Part shown: positions 37,013 to 43,524 of the stretch, one piece after another
Layout: every line of letters begins with the position of its first letter
Numbering within the stretch: the stretch's first letter is position 1
Assembly (NCBI GenBank): GCA_902786355.1
Contig: CADABZ010000008.1
Location: 1-64,000 of the forward strand
Direction: 5' to 3'
DNA: 64,000 nucleotides
Source of the DNA: an uncultured Eubacteriales bacterium
Lineage (GTDB): Bacteria > Bacillota > Clostridia > Peptostreptococcales > Anaerovoracaceae
Translations under genes and position numbers: made by a program
Notes under the pieces: model-generated
What the model saw: the letters and a program-made list of their open reading frames with translations, nothing else
The model's database searches: none
What the model was told of the DNA's origin: nothing

Positions 37013-37456
37013 TTATAATCTGTGTTTCCGGGTCGCTCCCTGGATACGGCTGAGAGCTCTTGACAGCTCAGCTTCGACCATAGCGTGATCTCTGTTGCTG
37101 TTGGTCCGCCTGAGCTTTTCTCTGGCTTTTTCTTCAGCTCTTCTTGCTCTCGCCTCGTCGATATCTTCCGGACGTTCAGCTGTATCAACAAGGATCATGA
37201 CTTCACCATTCTCGACTTTGAGAAGTCCGTATGACACGATGATCTCCTGTCTGCCATTAAGGCCCGCCTTATCCGCATCTTCGCCGGAAGGCTCGAACTC
37301 AAGCACGCCGGGAACTACGGCCATAATAACATTGGAGTGCTGAGCAAGTATCCCGACGCTGCCTTCTGTTGTAGGCAGTGTGACACTCAGCGCTTTGCCG
37401 TCATATACCATATGATCGCTGGCCATTATCTGAAGTAAGAATGTATTGCCGCTCAT
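37013..37456 (-). CDS. atpC: F-type ATP synthase epsilon subunit
   Basis: 147 residues. N-terminal beta-sandwich with LPTTEGSVGILAQHSNVIMAV and the central rotor-binding GLLKVENGEVMILVDTAER, then a C-terminal helical hairpin (RARRAEEKAREKLRR). It couples and regulates rotation together with gamma. Normal length, last gene of the operon, 21 bases after atpD and just before the operon terminator. Confidence 0.95.
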   Translation of the reverse strand: MSGNTFLLQIMASDHMVYDGKALSVTLPTTEGSVGILAQHSNVIMAVVPGVLEFEPSGEDADKAGLNGRQEIIVSYGLLKVENGEVMILVDTAERPEDIDEARARRAEEKAREKLRRTNSNRDHAMVEAELSRALSRIQGATRKHRL

Positions 37457-37477: not shown

Positions 37478-38899
<1,422 letters not shown>

Positions 38900-39799
38900 T
38901 TATCTTTTCTTTTTCCTGAGGCTGCGTGCTCCGGAAGATACCTCTGTTATCTCCTGAGTGATAGCATTCTGCCTCAGATGGTTATACTCAAGTTCGAGTC
39001 TTGCCAGAAGCTCGCTGGCGTTGTCATTGGCCGCATCCATAGCCATCATTCTTGCATTCTGCTCTGATGAATAGCTGTTGACCAGTGCAGAGTAGATATA
39101 GCCGCCCATATAGGATATCAGGCTGCTTTCAAGCACTGTCTCTACATCCGGCTCGAATTCAAAGACTGTGGATGCATCACTTGCAGTCTCCTCTCCTTTC
39201 GGAACGAAATCATCCTTGTCAAAAGGAAGGATCCTGTCACATCTCGTATTGCCTGCGCCCAGGCCGCCGGAGAATTCTGTATAGCATACATATATACGGT
39301 CGAATTCTCTCTTGTCAAAATCTTCCAGAAGCTCCTCTGTGATATCGCGCGCCATGGCAAGCGACGGAACGTTCATCGAATGCTCGAAGCTCAGTTCCAC
39401 GTTAGTGCCGTGGTTCCTGAAATATCTCCAGCCGTAATCTCCGACTACATACATTTCATATGCATCACTCATGTCAGCCTTGGCGAGAGCCTCTCTGATG
39501 ACATTCTGGTTATATGAACCAGCCAGGCCCTTGTCTCCTGTGATGACGAGGATGGCGTTCCTGCCGCCCTTTACATTATCATCGACATTCGGATCAAAAT
39601 ACCTGTTTCTGGCATCCGCACTGACAGCGAACATTCTTCGTATCTCACGTCTGAGCAGACTGAAATATGGTCTGACCTGCTCAGCGTCCCGCCTGGCTTT
39701 ACGCATCTTGGTCGAAGAGATCAGATACATGGCATTCGTGATCTTCTGTGTATCACTGACGCTTTTTATTCTGTTTTTTATCTCCTTGGTCGATGCCAT
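38900..39799 (-). CDS. atpG: F-type ATP synthase gamma subunit
   Basis: 299 residues. The N-terminal helix KEIKNRIKSVSDTQKITNAM and the C-terminal RQNAITQEITEVSSGA form the rotor coiled coil. The Rossmann-like middle has VITGDKGLAGSYN. It is slightly longer than usual in the middle (about 200-215, an acidic FVPKGEETASDAS stretch). The C-terminus ends in a basic RSLRKKKR tail. Placed between atpA and atpD as normal. Confidence 0.96.
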   Translation of the reverse strand: MASTKEIKNRIKSVSDTQKITNAMYLISSTKMRKARRDAEQVRPYFSLLRREIRRMFAVSADARNRYFDPNVDDNVKGGRNAILVITGDKGLAGSYNQNVIREALAKADMSDAYEMYVVGDYGWRYFRNHGTNVELSFEHSMNVPSLAMARDITEELLEDFDKREFDRIYVCYTEFSGGLGAGNTRCDRILPFDKDDFVPKGEETASDASTVFEFEPDVETVLESSLISYMGGYIYSALVNSYSSEQNARMMAMDAANDNASELLARLELEYNHLRQNAITQEITEVSSGARSLRKKKR

Positions 39800-39823: not shown

Positions 39824-41563
39824 TTACTGCCATTTTGTGCGGTATTTTGCAGAAATATCTATTATCTCCTGCTTTAGATCGTCATCAAGCACGCCTGTGC
39901 TGTCGATCCTTGTGCAAATATCCTGATGAGCTGTCTCAAACTCCTCGATCAGCCCTTCTATGAACGGTGTGACCTTATCAACATCAAGACCTTTCATAGT
40001 ATGAGCCAGAGCCATTACGAGAGTGATGACCTGCTCGTGCTGTGACTTAGGATGATACTGCTTCTGGCGCAGCATTCTCATAAGGCCCGCGCCGTATTCG
40101 AGCTGGGATCTTGTCTGCTCGTCAAGGTCTGAAGCGAACTGTGTGAAGACCTCCATCTCGCGGTACTGTGCCAGATCGATCCTGAGTGTTCCCGTAGCTT
40201 TCTTCATGGCCTTGGTCTGTGCCGCTCCGCCTACACGGGATACTGACAGTCCTACGTTAACGGCCGGTCTCTGTCCTGCGAAGAAGAGATCAGACTCGAG
40301 GAATATCTGTCCGTCAGTGATCGAAATGATATTAGTAGGGATATATGCGGAAACGTCACCAGCCTGTGTCTCTACGATAGGAAGAGCTGTGATAGAGCCT
40401 CCTCCGATCTTGTCTGACAGTCTCGCAGCTCTCTCAAGAAGCCTTGAATGCAGGTAGAAAACGTCTCCAGGATATGCCTCACGTCCAGGCGATCTGTCAA
40501 GCAGCAGCGAAAGCGCACGATATGCGACTGCGTGTTTTGACAGGTCATCATAGACGATAAGTACGTCCTTGCCCTTGTTCATGAAGTACTCAGCCATAGC
40601 GCATCCGGCATATGGTGCTATGTACTGCAGAGGTGCAGGCTCACTTGCGCTGGCACAAACTATGATGGAGTGATCCATCGCGCCATGCTTTTTGAGTGTC
40701 TGCTGTATCTGCACTACAGAAGAGTTCTTCTGACCTATAGCTACGTAAATAGTTATACAGTTCTTGCCGTTCTGATTGATCATAGCGTCTACAGCAATAG
40801 CAGTCTTTCCTGTCTGCCTGTCGCCTATGATCAGCTCTCTCTGACCCCTGCCTATAGGGAACATGGAGTCTATAGAGAAGATACCGGTCTCAAGTGGTGT
40901 GTCTACCGGCTGCCTGTCCATGATCGACGGTGCCGGAGTCTCGATCGGCATATAGCCTGAAGCCTCGATCTCGCCAAGTCCGTCGATAGGAACTCCCAGC
41001 GAGTCAACGACTCTGCCAAGGAATGCCTCGCCTACAGGTACACCTGCAGTCTTGCCTGTTCTTTTTACACTGGAGCCCTGTTCGACATTTTCGTCATCAT
41101 TGAAAAGAACGCAGCCGATCTCATCTGTACGGATGTCCTGGACCATTCCTCTGACTCCGTCAGTGAAAAGCAGGATCTCCCCGTATGTTGCCTGTCCGAG
41201 TCCTGTTACGGTAGCGATACCGTCACCGACAGTCTTGACTTCGCCGACCTGCTCTGCGAGAGCTGCCGGTGTCCACGAGCTGATCGTCTCCTTGAGGAGA
41301 GGAATAATGTTTCCGTTGGTCGCAGGCACTTTGACGAGTGTATCGCGGAGCTGACGGAATCTGCCTCCGACAGACCAGTCATAGATATCACTGCCGACCT
41401 CCATACGGAAACCGCCCGGGAAAGCCTTTGACTCGACCCATTCGATCGAAACATCGCTACCGTATTTCTTCTCTATGAATTTCTCAAATCTCGCGTACTG
41501 CTCCTTATTCGGCGCTACAGCCGAATAAATTTTAGCCGTGAGTATACTGATATCTGAGTTCAT
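39824..41563 (-). CDS. atpA: ATP synthase alpha subunit fused to a delta-subunit C-terminal domain
   Basis: 579 residues, about 70 more than normal. From residue 82 it is an ordinary alpha subunit: NIIPLLKETISSW is the N-terminal helix, GDRQTGKT (247-254) the Walker A, and SVSRVGGAAQ carries the arginine finger. The Walker A is offset by 78 from E. coli alpha. Residues 1-80 match the delta/OSCP C-terminal domain: ARFEKFIEKKYGSDVSIEW, then FPGGFRMEVGSDIYDWSV and GRFRQLRDTL, where delta has GG(i/l)..r.GD..iDgSv.grL..L. No atpH exists in the 59 bases before it. The fusion probably ties alpha directly to the b stalk. All three alpha copies would carry the domain unless it is removed. Confidence 0.9.
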   Translation of the reverse strand: MNSDISILTAKIYSAVAPNKEQYARFEKFIEKKYGSDVSIEWVESKAFPGGFRMEVGSDIYDWSVGGRFRQLRDTLVKVPATNGNIIPLLKETISSWTPAALAEQVGEVKTVGDGIATVTGLGQATYGEILLFTDGVRGMVQDIRTDEIGCVLFNDDENVEQGSSVKRTGKTAGVPVGEAFLGRVVDSLGVPIDGLGEIEASGYMPIETPAPSIMDRQPVDTPLETGIFSIDSMFPIGRGQRELIIGDRQTGKTAIAVDAMINQNGKNCITIYVAIGQKNSSVVQIQQTLKKHGAMDHSIIVCASASEPAPLQYIAPYAGCAMAEYFMNKGKDVLIVYDDLSKHAVAYRALSLLLDRSPGREAYPGDVFYLHSRLLERAARLSDKIGGGSITALPIVETQAGDVSAYIPTNIISITDGQIFLESDLFFAGQRPAVNVGLSVSRVGGAAQTKAMKKATGTLRIDLAQYREMEVFTQFASDLDEQTRSQLEYGAGLMRMLRQKQYHPKSQHEQVITLVMALAHTMKGLDVDKVTPFIEGLIEEFETAHQDICTRIDSTGVLDDDLKQEIIDISAKYRTKWQ

Positions 41564-41622
41564 ATATGACCTCTGTTTTCTGAATTATAAATAGTGCCTG
41601 AAGTGCTGTGCTGTCTGTCACA

Positions 41623-42108
41623 TCACTCTGCTTCTGCCGCATCAAGGAACTGATCGAAGGCATCCGAAGCGGACTGCTCGAGTGTGAGCTTTTCCATAGC
41701 GCCTGTGACCATATCTGTGATCTCCCTCTGTGCGGAAGCTATTATTTCTTCTTTCTCTCTGTTCGCCTCAACACGCGCATCGCTTACGATCTTCTCGGCA
41801 TCTTCCTTAGCCTGAGCAAGCTGACGATCACGCTGTGCTGCAACCTCCTGGTTCATCTTAGCCTTCTCGGCTCTGGTCTCTTCATCGAAAGTCCTTACCT
41901 TCTCGGCATAGACTTCCTTGCTGCTCTCTGCTTCATGGAGAGCTTCTTCTGCTTTGCTGTCCATATCCGCATAATACTCAGTCCTTTTGGCCATAAAATC
42001 TCTGACCGGTTTGTAGAGCAGGATATACAGAGCTCCGAAGAGGATGGTGAAGTTGAACAGGTGCAGCAAAATCTGCTGAAAATCTATATTAAGCGGTAAA
42101 CCTGTCAT
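41623..42108 (-). CDS. atpF: F-type ATP synthase b subunit
   Basis: 161 residues, normal length. One N-terminal membrane helix (about 10-32) and the family motif YKPVRDFMAKR are followed by a long charged helix that dimerises as the peripheral stalk. The C-terminus ends in DAFDQFLDAAEAE without any fused delta domain, unlike the mycobacterial b-delta fusion. It should dock on the delta-like domain carried by the alpha subunit. It precedes atpA by 59 bases. Confidence 0.94.
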   Translation of the reverse strand: MTGLPLNIDFQQILLHLFNFTILFGALYILLYKPVRDFMAKRTEYYADMDSKAEEALHEAESSKEVYAEKVRTFDEETRAEKAKMNQEVAAQRDRQLAQAKEDAEKIVSDARVEANREKEEIIASAQREITDMVTGAMEKLTLEQSASDAFDQFLDAAEAE

Positions 42109-42136: not shown

Positions 42137-42517
42137 CTACAATACGAATATTATCAGGATTACAACGAGCAGCGCATAGATGATCGCCGTCTCGATAAAT
42201 ACAAGTCCCAGCATGAAATTCGTACGTATCTTACCGTCTGCTTCAGGCTGACGTGAAATACCCTCTGCAGCCTTACCTCCGGAAATACCCATTCCGATAC
42301 CACCGCCGCATGCTGCAAGTCCGATAGCAATACCGGAAGCGATAGCCTTAAGTCCTGTTGTGTTGTCAGCTGCAGCTGCAACTGTCTCAGTCTGAGCTGC
42401 TGTACCTGCACTGTCTCCTGTAGCGGCGAATGCTCCAACCGTAGCGATCATGCCCATGATCAGGATAACTGCACCGAGTACGATAGCGAGTCTTGCCAGT
42501 TTCTTTGAGTTAGCCAT
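42137..42517 (-). CDS. atpE: F-type ATP synthase c subunit with signal-like N-terminal extension
   Basis: 126 residues against the usual 75-90. Residues 56-126 are the two-helix c subunit with the loop SRQPEADGKI (Arg89-Gln-Pro) and the ion-binding Glu109 in VFIETAIIY. The Gln of known Na+ c rings is replaced by Met76 (GIGMG). Residues 1-55 add a basic start, a hydrophobic stretch (LAIVLGAVILIMGMIATVGA) and an Ala/Thr-rich segment resembling a cleavable signal peptide. GGAGG nine bases before ATG confirms this start. Ion specificity is uncertain. Confidence 0.93.
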   Translation of the reverse strand: MANSKKLARLAIVLGAVILIMGMIATVGAFAATGDSAGTAAQTETVAAAADNTTGLKAIASGIAIGLAACGGGIGMGISGGKAAEGISRQPEADGKIRTNFMLGLVFIETAIIYALLVVILIIFVL

Positions 42518-42536: not shown

Positions 42537-43421
42537 TTAATTGTGATGCTGCAGCTTAGGCAGGCGCCGCAGTTTCAGTCTTGTTATTTTTCTTCCAGTG
42601 CCGTCAGCGTTCTTGTCCTTCAGCGGCTTAGGTGTGTTGTCTGACACCTGACCGTAGAAGAGTGATGTAAGCATAGTCAGAACGTAAGCCTGTATCAGTG
42701 CATGCAGCAGTGTGAACAGGACGCCGACCAGTACCGGTAGCACATAGCTCAGCGATGAGTAATGGTATACGAGCTCGGTAACGAGCGCGCCTGAGAGCAG
42801 AGCTCCGAAAAGCCTGAAGCTCAGCGAGATAGGCAGCGAGTACTCCTTAAGAGCCTTGCCTATACCCCTGATGCCGTTACCTGCGATACCTCCGGAAACA
42901 ATGACAAGATATGAAAGACATCCCATCATTATCGCACCATTGATATCTGACAGCGGTGCCGGAAGTGATATCGACACTCCGTTAATTGTGACCGCCTGCA
43001 CACCGAACAGCTCGAAAAGTGTGCCTGTAAATATATACGCACCTGCAGCGAATATGTATGCGCCGAGGAATCTGTTGATCTTTGAGTTGCCCTTGGCCAT
43101 GTTTACGAATATGCCAACGGCCGTCTCAAGCACCAGCTGGAATTTTCCCGGTACCATCGTGAACTTCGGAATCACGAATATTCTGCATATCAGGGCGAAT
43201 ACTATCATTATCCCTGAAACTATTACGCCGGCCAGCAGTCCCGGATTGACTTCCAGCCCGAACAGACTGACCTTATTGATATCGTGCAGAACTGCATCGC
43301 GCATGACTTCCTGGATCGTCTCTTTTTCCGGTCCCGCACCGGTCAGGATAGCCCCGACCATGAATACGAGAGCGATCACAGCGAATATCAATATCGCTTT
43401 GCGCCTCTCCTGCTTGCTCAT
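42537..43421 (-). CDS. atpB: F-type ATP synthase a subunit
   Basis: 294 residues from ATG at 43421, with AGGAG eight bases upstream; a GTG three codons earlier overlaps that spacing. The proton-path region has SLSFRLFGALLSGALV with the essential Arg, and HALIQAYVLTMLTSLFY near the end. An additional N-terminal hydrophobic helix (about 9-30) and a 35-residue basic tail (RKITRLKLRRLPKLQHHN) lie beyond the usual ends. First gene of the operon; no atpI precedes it. Confidence 0.94.
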   Translation of the reverse strand: MSKQERRKAILIFAVIALVFMVGAILTGAGPEKETIQEVMRDAVLHDINKVSLFGLEVNPGLLAGVIVSGIMIVFALICRIFVIPKFTMVPGKFQLVLETAVGIFVNMAKGNSKINRFLGAYIFAAGAYIFTGTLFELFGVQAVTINGVSISLPAPLSDINGAIMMGCLSYLVIVSGGIAGNGIRGIGKALKEYSLPISLSFRLFGALLSGALVTELVYHYSSLSYVLPVLVGVLFTLLHALIQAYVLTMLTSLFYGQVSDNTPKPLKDKNADGTGRKITRLKLRRLPKLQHHN

Positions 43422-43524
43422 AAGCAGCACTCCTTTTCTATAGTTTTATGAACCTCTCCTGCTCAGTCATCTGCCGGCAGAAAAGGTATCTTTTTTACCA
43501 TTGTGAGTATATTACCAAGGTTTG

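Follow-up and report, generated by a model that had tools for sequence, protein, structure and literature searches.

The locus described here raises the question of how an F-type ATP synthase can attach its stalk when its operon has no separate gene for the delta subunit, and how many stalks such an enzyme would carry. The window (the whole 64,000-nucleotide stretch of DNA that was analysed, from a gut bacterium) contains an F-type ATP synthase gene set in one operon on the minus strand, in the order a-c-b-alpha-gamma-beta-epsilon, with separate atpH absent. Pfam matches agree with the original prediction that the operon is complete save for that gene: atpB (subunit a, 297 aa, GTG start; 42537..43430; ATP-synt_A, E 4.7e-15), atpE (subunit c, 126 aa, c domain at residues 59-122; 42137..42517; ATP-synt_C, E 7.7e-17) and atpF (subunit b, 161 aa; 41623..42108; ATP-synt_B, E 2.4e-14) precede the alpha gene, and atpG (gamma, 299 aa; 38900..39799; ATP-synt, E 3.1e-83), atpD (beta, 465 aa; 37478..38875; ATP-synt_ab, E 6.4e-74) and atpC (epsilon, 147 aa, both domains; 37013..37456; ATP-synt_DE_N and ATP-synt_DE) follow it. 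Subunit b ends in a C-terminal FDQFL motif, presumably part of the helix by which b attaches to the delta C-domain, and comparison of C-termini by eye showed this docking helix to be retained across the window's clade. The N-terminus of the window's subunit c (42137-42517) is extended by ~50 residues that include a hydrophobic stretch and by eye resemble a signal peptide; longer c frames are also seen in close relatives and are absent from most f29 fused operons.

The atpA frame (39824-41563, minus strand) encodes 579 aa from an ATG start with a GAGG element upstream. Residues 6-76 match positions 101-172 of the 172 positions of the Pfam OSCP profile PF00213 (E 4e-9; 37.2 bits against a gathering cut-off of 22.3, which places the protein in the delta/OSCP family), and the first 92 residues alone match it with E 1.8e-10. 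The extra N-terminus of alpha, first described as 78-80 residues with a delta-like pattern, is thus borne out as a delta/OSCP C-terminal domain (deltaC) by profile search; measured up to the alpha N-terminal helix, the extension is ~85 residues. The OSCP profile detects no delta N-terminal helical domain (PF00213 positions 1-100), the match starting at position 101, and the 59 bases between atpF and atpA (41564..41622, minus strand), which contain the atpA Shine-Dalgarno element, are too few to encode one, as had been pointed out.

The delta/OSCP C-terminal domain occupies residues 1-76 (41336..41563, minus strand; genome match 41336-41572, with further support from the fold search below). It is followed by a linker and the conserved alpha N-terminal helix (residues 77-104, IIPLLKETISSW; 41252..41335, minus strand; helix at 86-96 in both models), where P88 is invariant and L89 and W97 reach at least 90% among 40 sequences, the window's among them, and then by the alpha core (residue 105 to the stop; 39824..41251, minus strand). 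Pfam finds three alpha domains after the OSCP match, and TIGR00962 scores 721.9 bits over residues 85-574 (cut-off 484.45). The Walker A motif GDRQTGKT lies at residues 247-254, a 78-residue offset from what we take to be the E. coli position, and a normal alpha follows, as expected.

A true alpha start near residue 80, an objection raised at the outset, is unlikely: the sole start codon at the window junction is a GTG at codon 79 without a Shine-Dalgarno element. In relatives, a junction start codon of any kind occurs in 55 of 80 and one with a 4-base element in just 10 of 80; the upstream start has such an element in 77 of 80, a figure inflated by choosing the start partly by its element. 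The dN/dS of deltaC is ~0.12 against locus L048, where dS is already 1.8, and that of the alpha core is ~0.04; in two further pairs synonymous sites were saturated. Judged by these ratios, deltaC is under purifying selection, though evolving faster than the alpha core. At the level of sequence, then, the window atpA is confirmed as a deltaC-alpha fusion with loss of the delta N-terminal domain.

Structure prediction is consistent with this assignment. A model of residues 1-108 (40 sequences) had a mean pLDDT of 70.9, with block means of 74-88 in residues 11-70, and in a PDB fold search with it the first 45 ranks were all chains from ATP synthase structures (nine with E <= 0.001; TM-score to the query 0.42-0.54), matches known by their entry titles and with not every chain identified as delta/OSCP. 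Rank 1 was the Bacillus PS3 delta, ranks 5 and 8 were the engineered chains 9jc1_K and 9jc1_I, and several others were mycobacterial b-delta. For the full-length model (42 sequences; of no more than fair quality, mean pLDDT 66.8), the top three Foldseek matches were the engineered 9jc1_I, 9jc1_K and 9jc1_J, over 572 columns; the model superposes poorly on 9jc1 (rmsd 13.9-14.5, TM-score 0.53). A PDB profile search with the window protein likewise matched delta chains and 9jc1. By homology, the N-terminal domain should have the delta C-terminal fold and, like its counterpart in the engineered PS3 enzyme, would bind b at that subunit's C-terminal helix.

The genome to which the window belongs (2.5 Mb, 63 contigs) is 95% complete, with ~5% unseen. 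A genome-wide check for a separate atpH, which could have overturned the reading, found none in this 95% complete genome, the fused gene being the single OSCP match at E<=10. Nor did the same assembly, at that completeness, contain a second alpha: the window gene is its sole match above the atpA cut-off, and the four further matches to the alpha model are the beta gene, two matches on contig C10 and one weak match on C2. Since the sole atpA above the cut-off is fused, all three F-type alphas should carry deltaC. The genome also has an RnfC match above cut-off and, on contig C10, an A/V-type ATPase D subunit above cut-off; an A/V-type c-ring subunit was not found in the stretch of that contig examined.

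A scan of genome contigs yielded 208 confirmed relatives, the best 80 of which were read at the locus. The survey of related Clostridia proposed with the original prediction gave a clear outcome: deltaC and alpha share one frame in all 80 of these best 80, with a, c and b before and gamma, beta and epsilon after wherever the contig permits, and a class sample (393 Clostridia genomes, >=90% complete) held at least 41 deltaC-alpha frames by hand count among the matches listed, distributed over 17 family codes. Forty of these 41 have no stop in the match and the remaining one (G192) is a 589-aa frame read whole; anatomy was read for 30, and the other 11 were assigned by frame length and match. 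One fused frame (G186) ends early in alpha (509 aa). Three more genomes with deltaC-alpha (G190, G253 and G381) came from 40 hand-picked genomes, and in a phylum sample (398 genomes) seven matches span delta into alpha without a stop, separate genes having a stop between them. Within the sample of the window's own family (119 genomes) the fusion was found in seven (G000, G003, G019, G026, G040, G091 and G102), with G003 having a separate delta besides. Operon anatomy was read for 40 loci and for eight others; the alpha HMM applied to the 40 also labels beta, and the two were told apart by score margin. At five loci (L159, L160, L181, L192 and L193) deltaC scored no more than the script threshold of 15 bits and was assigned from PF00213 or profile matches, PF00213 being below cut-off for L159 and its genome.

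The relatives carry the labels Mogibacterium, Gallimonas, Lachnospiraceae, Christensenellaceae and Oscillibacter sp. ER4, together with metagenome-assembled genomes named Acholeplasmatales and Anaeroplasmataceae. The last two (L097 and L100) have fusions nested among Clostridia, pointing to transfer or misbinning. Fusions are present in four one-contig genomes (G138, G179, G246 and G351) and in Oscillibacter sp. ER4 (L110; Pfam OSCP E 3.9e-6), whose record is not labelled as metagenome-assembled.

Several other arrangements of delta were found. The class sample also contained, among the matches listed, at least 11 full delta-alpha frames (671-691 aa) and at least one tripartite frame, and full delta-alpha fusions were read in G107, G130, G236, G383 and G466. 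Stand-alone deltaC frames of 71-95 aa occur in G476, G330, G305 and G156 (two of the four checked with Pfam); such mini-delta frames, with the C-terminal domain only, lie at L169 6126-6365, L205 5176-5448, L167 5915-6127 and L172 5970-6254, which means that fusion is not the sole way to dispense with the N-domain. A short separate delta (160-aa frame) is found in G011 and G095, and an N-ATPase-like b-deltaC in G037 and G112. Two loci encode, after a separate b, a tripartite protein b'-deltaC-alpha (b' being our label): L033 2964-5198 (745 aa; G105, genome 79% complete) and L198 4676-6898 (741 aa; G492, 99% complete and 6% contaminated). The two genomes belong to different families, and their tripartite proteins share 36% identity in the first 290 residues. 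OSCP is above cut-off in both (E 1.9e-9 in G105, 1.6e-11 in G492); the b-like start barely passes the cut-off in G105 (28.4 vs 28 bits) but falls short of it in G492 (22.0), as does the separate b of L198 (17.9 bits; Pfam cut-off 28). Two other genomes of the G105 genus (both 77% complete) yielded no further tripartite protein; G492 is the sole sampled genome of its family. Unless cleaved, b'-deltaC-alpha would leave every F1 with three b' anchors attached.

Other long frames were seen at these operons. A single open frame without a stop spans gamma and beta at L185 7563-9953 (G228, 797 aa) and L199 7591-9996 (G318, 802 aa), that is, in two of 18 hand-picked genomes, with a profile built from those two. 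A rotor-stator read-through would be odd, and L185 has an ATG with a Shine-Dalgarno-like element before beta, so beta may start on its own. A 907-aa beta frame at L075 was rejected as a fusion because it is out of frame, and L079 has a 440-aa frame upstream of a tagged delta by loose BLAST match.

How often the arrangement changed was read from trees of the alpha core. On a careful tree of 63 rows, deltaC-alpha requires four changes, each of them forced by branches with good support, a count that on this unrooted tree cannot separate gains from losses; deltaC-alpha formed one group in none of 200 bootstrap trees. A quick tree of 93 rows (every fourth of L047-L126 plus L097 and L110, six of L002-L031 and the odd-numbered L132-L156, without duplicates) needs seven changes, at least four of them forced by starred branches, and carries a warning of long branches (L033, L039, L167, L168 and L172); the careful tree drops from it six long or odd rows, including the fused extra-class L166 and L168, and 24 others. 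In the window's clade, a pair formed by G088 (separate delta) and G130 (full fusion) is sister to the rest, and full fusions are placed next to deltaC-only rows; this suggests that genes fuse first and lose the N-domain later, while another clade, with a stand-alone deltaC (G330) as sister, suggests the reverse order. Within the genus to which the window belongs, G082 (locus L044) has a canonical operon with a separate delta, making operon replacement or loss likely.

A fusion of this kind is not without precedent, one case being in Acidaminococcus, a member of the Negativicutes. Ueno et al. 2025 (PMC12229609) deleted the N-domain of Bacillus PS3 delta and fused its C-domain to alpha. The available text of that paper describes an average of about two stalks by SDS-PAGE, as many as three stalks, together with three a subunits, by cryo-EM (very few particles kept three, and single-stalk particles looked intact) and a proton/ATP ratio of 5.8; with one stalk, it states, the number of ions spent on each ATP is set by the size of the c-ring, and the engineered fusion broke this rule. 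The initial idea that a covalent link would make the N-domain dispensable is what this engineered enzyme demonstrated. The accompanying idea that the fusion is undescribed was mistaken: the paper names natural fusions in Acidaminococcus fermentans and in UniProt entries G4Q3K6 and A0A1I2C5T3, the first by its description also a delta-alpha gene fusion without the delta N-domain, and its authors consider a multi-stalk enzyme highly likely in those natural cases. The string "Clostrid" is absent from the main text of PMC12229609. The open literature searched (preprints and most subscription journals lay outside its scope) held no other description of a delta-alpha fusion, and the available parts of PMC5709465 and PMC11738941 mention b-delta fusions without a delta-alpha one. 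The deltaC-alpha kind is therefore already in print; what is added here is its breadth, the repeated state change, the intermediates and the tripartite form.

In the engineered PS3 deltaDeltaN-alpha FoF1 (PDB 9jc1), delta residues 105-178 sit on the alpha N-terminus without a delta N-domain. The window protein is of this same kind, with residues 9-538 aligning to 9jc1 by sequence and a natural linker that in its clade is about three residues shorter. Unlike the engineered enzyme, that of the window is natural, its c is predicted to be proton-type and has an N-terminal extension, and its epsilon has both domains.

Other known systems differ further. In mycobacteria, b-delta is present in one copy per enzyme. 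Its fused delta C-domain was found by profile (PDB 7jg5), but there the full delta is joined to b. The N-ATPase b-delta (PMC11738941, as far as its available text goes; G037 and G112 here) resembles the window in having no free full delta, with a 252-aa b-deltaC in L039 whose OSCP match is weak (E 0.0067, below cut-off); however, its deltaC seems to be fused to b rather than alpha, and its operon begins with beta. The window operon departs from the N-ATPase order beta-epsilon-X-X-a-c-b-alpha-gamma, and its alpha scores 591.7 bits with TIGR03324 (N-ATPase), below the cut-off of 750.5. The Chloroflexus aurantiacus ATP synthase (PDB 9itj and others) has a short delta of 157 aa, but as a separate chain; in the PDB, the window b is most similar to the b of this enzyme (E 1.6e-10). 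Its PDB chains number 12 for delta in 6 entries, 72 for b in 18 and 18 for alpha in 6. These counts imply that each complex has three alpha, four b and two delta, which suggests that an F-type enzyme with two stalks occurs in nature.

Fused and non-fused enzymes also differ in subunit c. At its Na+-ligand position, presumably equivalent to Q32 in Ilyobacter, the window c has Met. Met or Ile occupies this position in 57 of 60 fused rows and Gln, Glu, Asn or Asp in 26 of 31 non-fused ones, counts that cover the tree rows with c found and are uncorrected for relatedness (the c of L034 is broken by a frameshift). Of the genomes with both enzyme types, four (G140, G192, G321 and G773) were compared: Gln or Glu is found at this position in the canonical c, alongside Glu-Thr-Thr and Tyr, and Ile, Met, Met and Asp, respectively, in the fused c. 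Under the ProAD rule as given in the available text of PMC11738941, any missing Na+ ligand means proton use, and the fused enzymes are predicted to be proton-type. In genomes with both, the fused enzyme might then be a proton machine and the canonical one sodium-type, part of a wider reading that, taken jointly, we hold tentatively and at somewhat less than even confidence.

What remains is the number of stalks. The original prediction noted that three alphas would offer three docks to one stalk; three fused alphas are indeed expected, but the published alternative of more than one stalk (PMC12229609) had been overlooked. We lean slightly towards a reading in which delta has lost its N-domain and its C-domain has become the alpha N-terminus, binding b, with the step to several stalks included. 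DeltaC on every alpha would most likely be a dock for a b2 stalk; as the three-fold axis is left uncapped by any delta N-domain, a separate b2 stalk plus an a subunit could attach to each alpha, more ions would be used per ATP, and the raised ratio would aid ATP synthesis at low driving force. We see the odds as about even that two or three stalks are present in the native enzyme and that its ion-to-ATP ratio is raised. This step draws on the engineered enzyme, the tripartite proteins and the Chloroflexus aurantiacus chain counts, the strongest hint being the b'-deltaC-alpha protein of two genomes, a protein that could be cleaved. Counting against it, the genes for a and b occur once each in the operon, as in any other. 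A PDB search with subunit a gave nothing on stalk number.

The same gene content, without sign of extra a or b, fits an enzyme with a single stalk, in which one of three deltaC would bind b2 and the other two would be idle or packed on the crown, the fusion anchoring the stalk and replacing the N-domain. Such an enzyme is a real possibility, if one we rather doubt: single-stalk particles of the engineered fusion are intact in the available account (PMC12229609), and linkers range by eye from ~9 to ~70 residues between clades, implying that strict three-fold packing is not conserved, but uncleaved b'-deltaC-alpha would bring three b' anchors per F1, and the mean of two stalks by SDS-PAGE in the same account suggests that open docks fill given b and a. 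Cleavage of alpha that left deltaC on some copies, giving one delta-like domain per F1, would resolve the asymmetry; we found no evidence in support of it, the window's clade has a short linker and then a conserved helix, and a freed deltaC without the N-domain would have to hold F1 unaided, so we regard it as very improbable. An artefact (chimeric assembly, wrong start or chance similarity) might be suspected given that most relatives are metagenome assemblies, but it is refuted in practice by the agreement of all 80 of the best 80 of 208 relatives, by the fusion in one-contig genomes and Oscillibacter sp. ER4 and by the start analysis, which favours the upstream start.

A layout engineered on purpose for extra stator arms thus turns out to be common in related bacteria, and the genomes with b'-deltaC-alpha and those with both enzyme types make the stalk question directly testable. 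If natural fusions are also multi-stalk, ions per ATP would be an evolvable trait set by stalk number and, if this is true, anaerobes living on small gradients would have used stalk number repeatedly.
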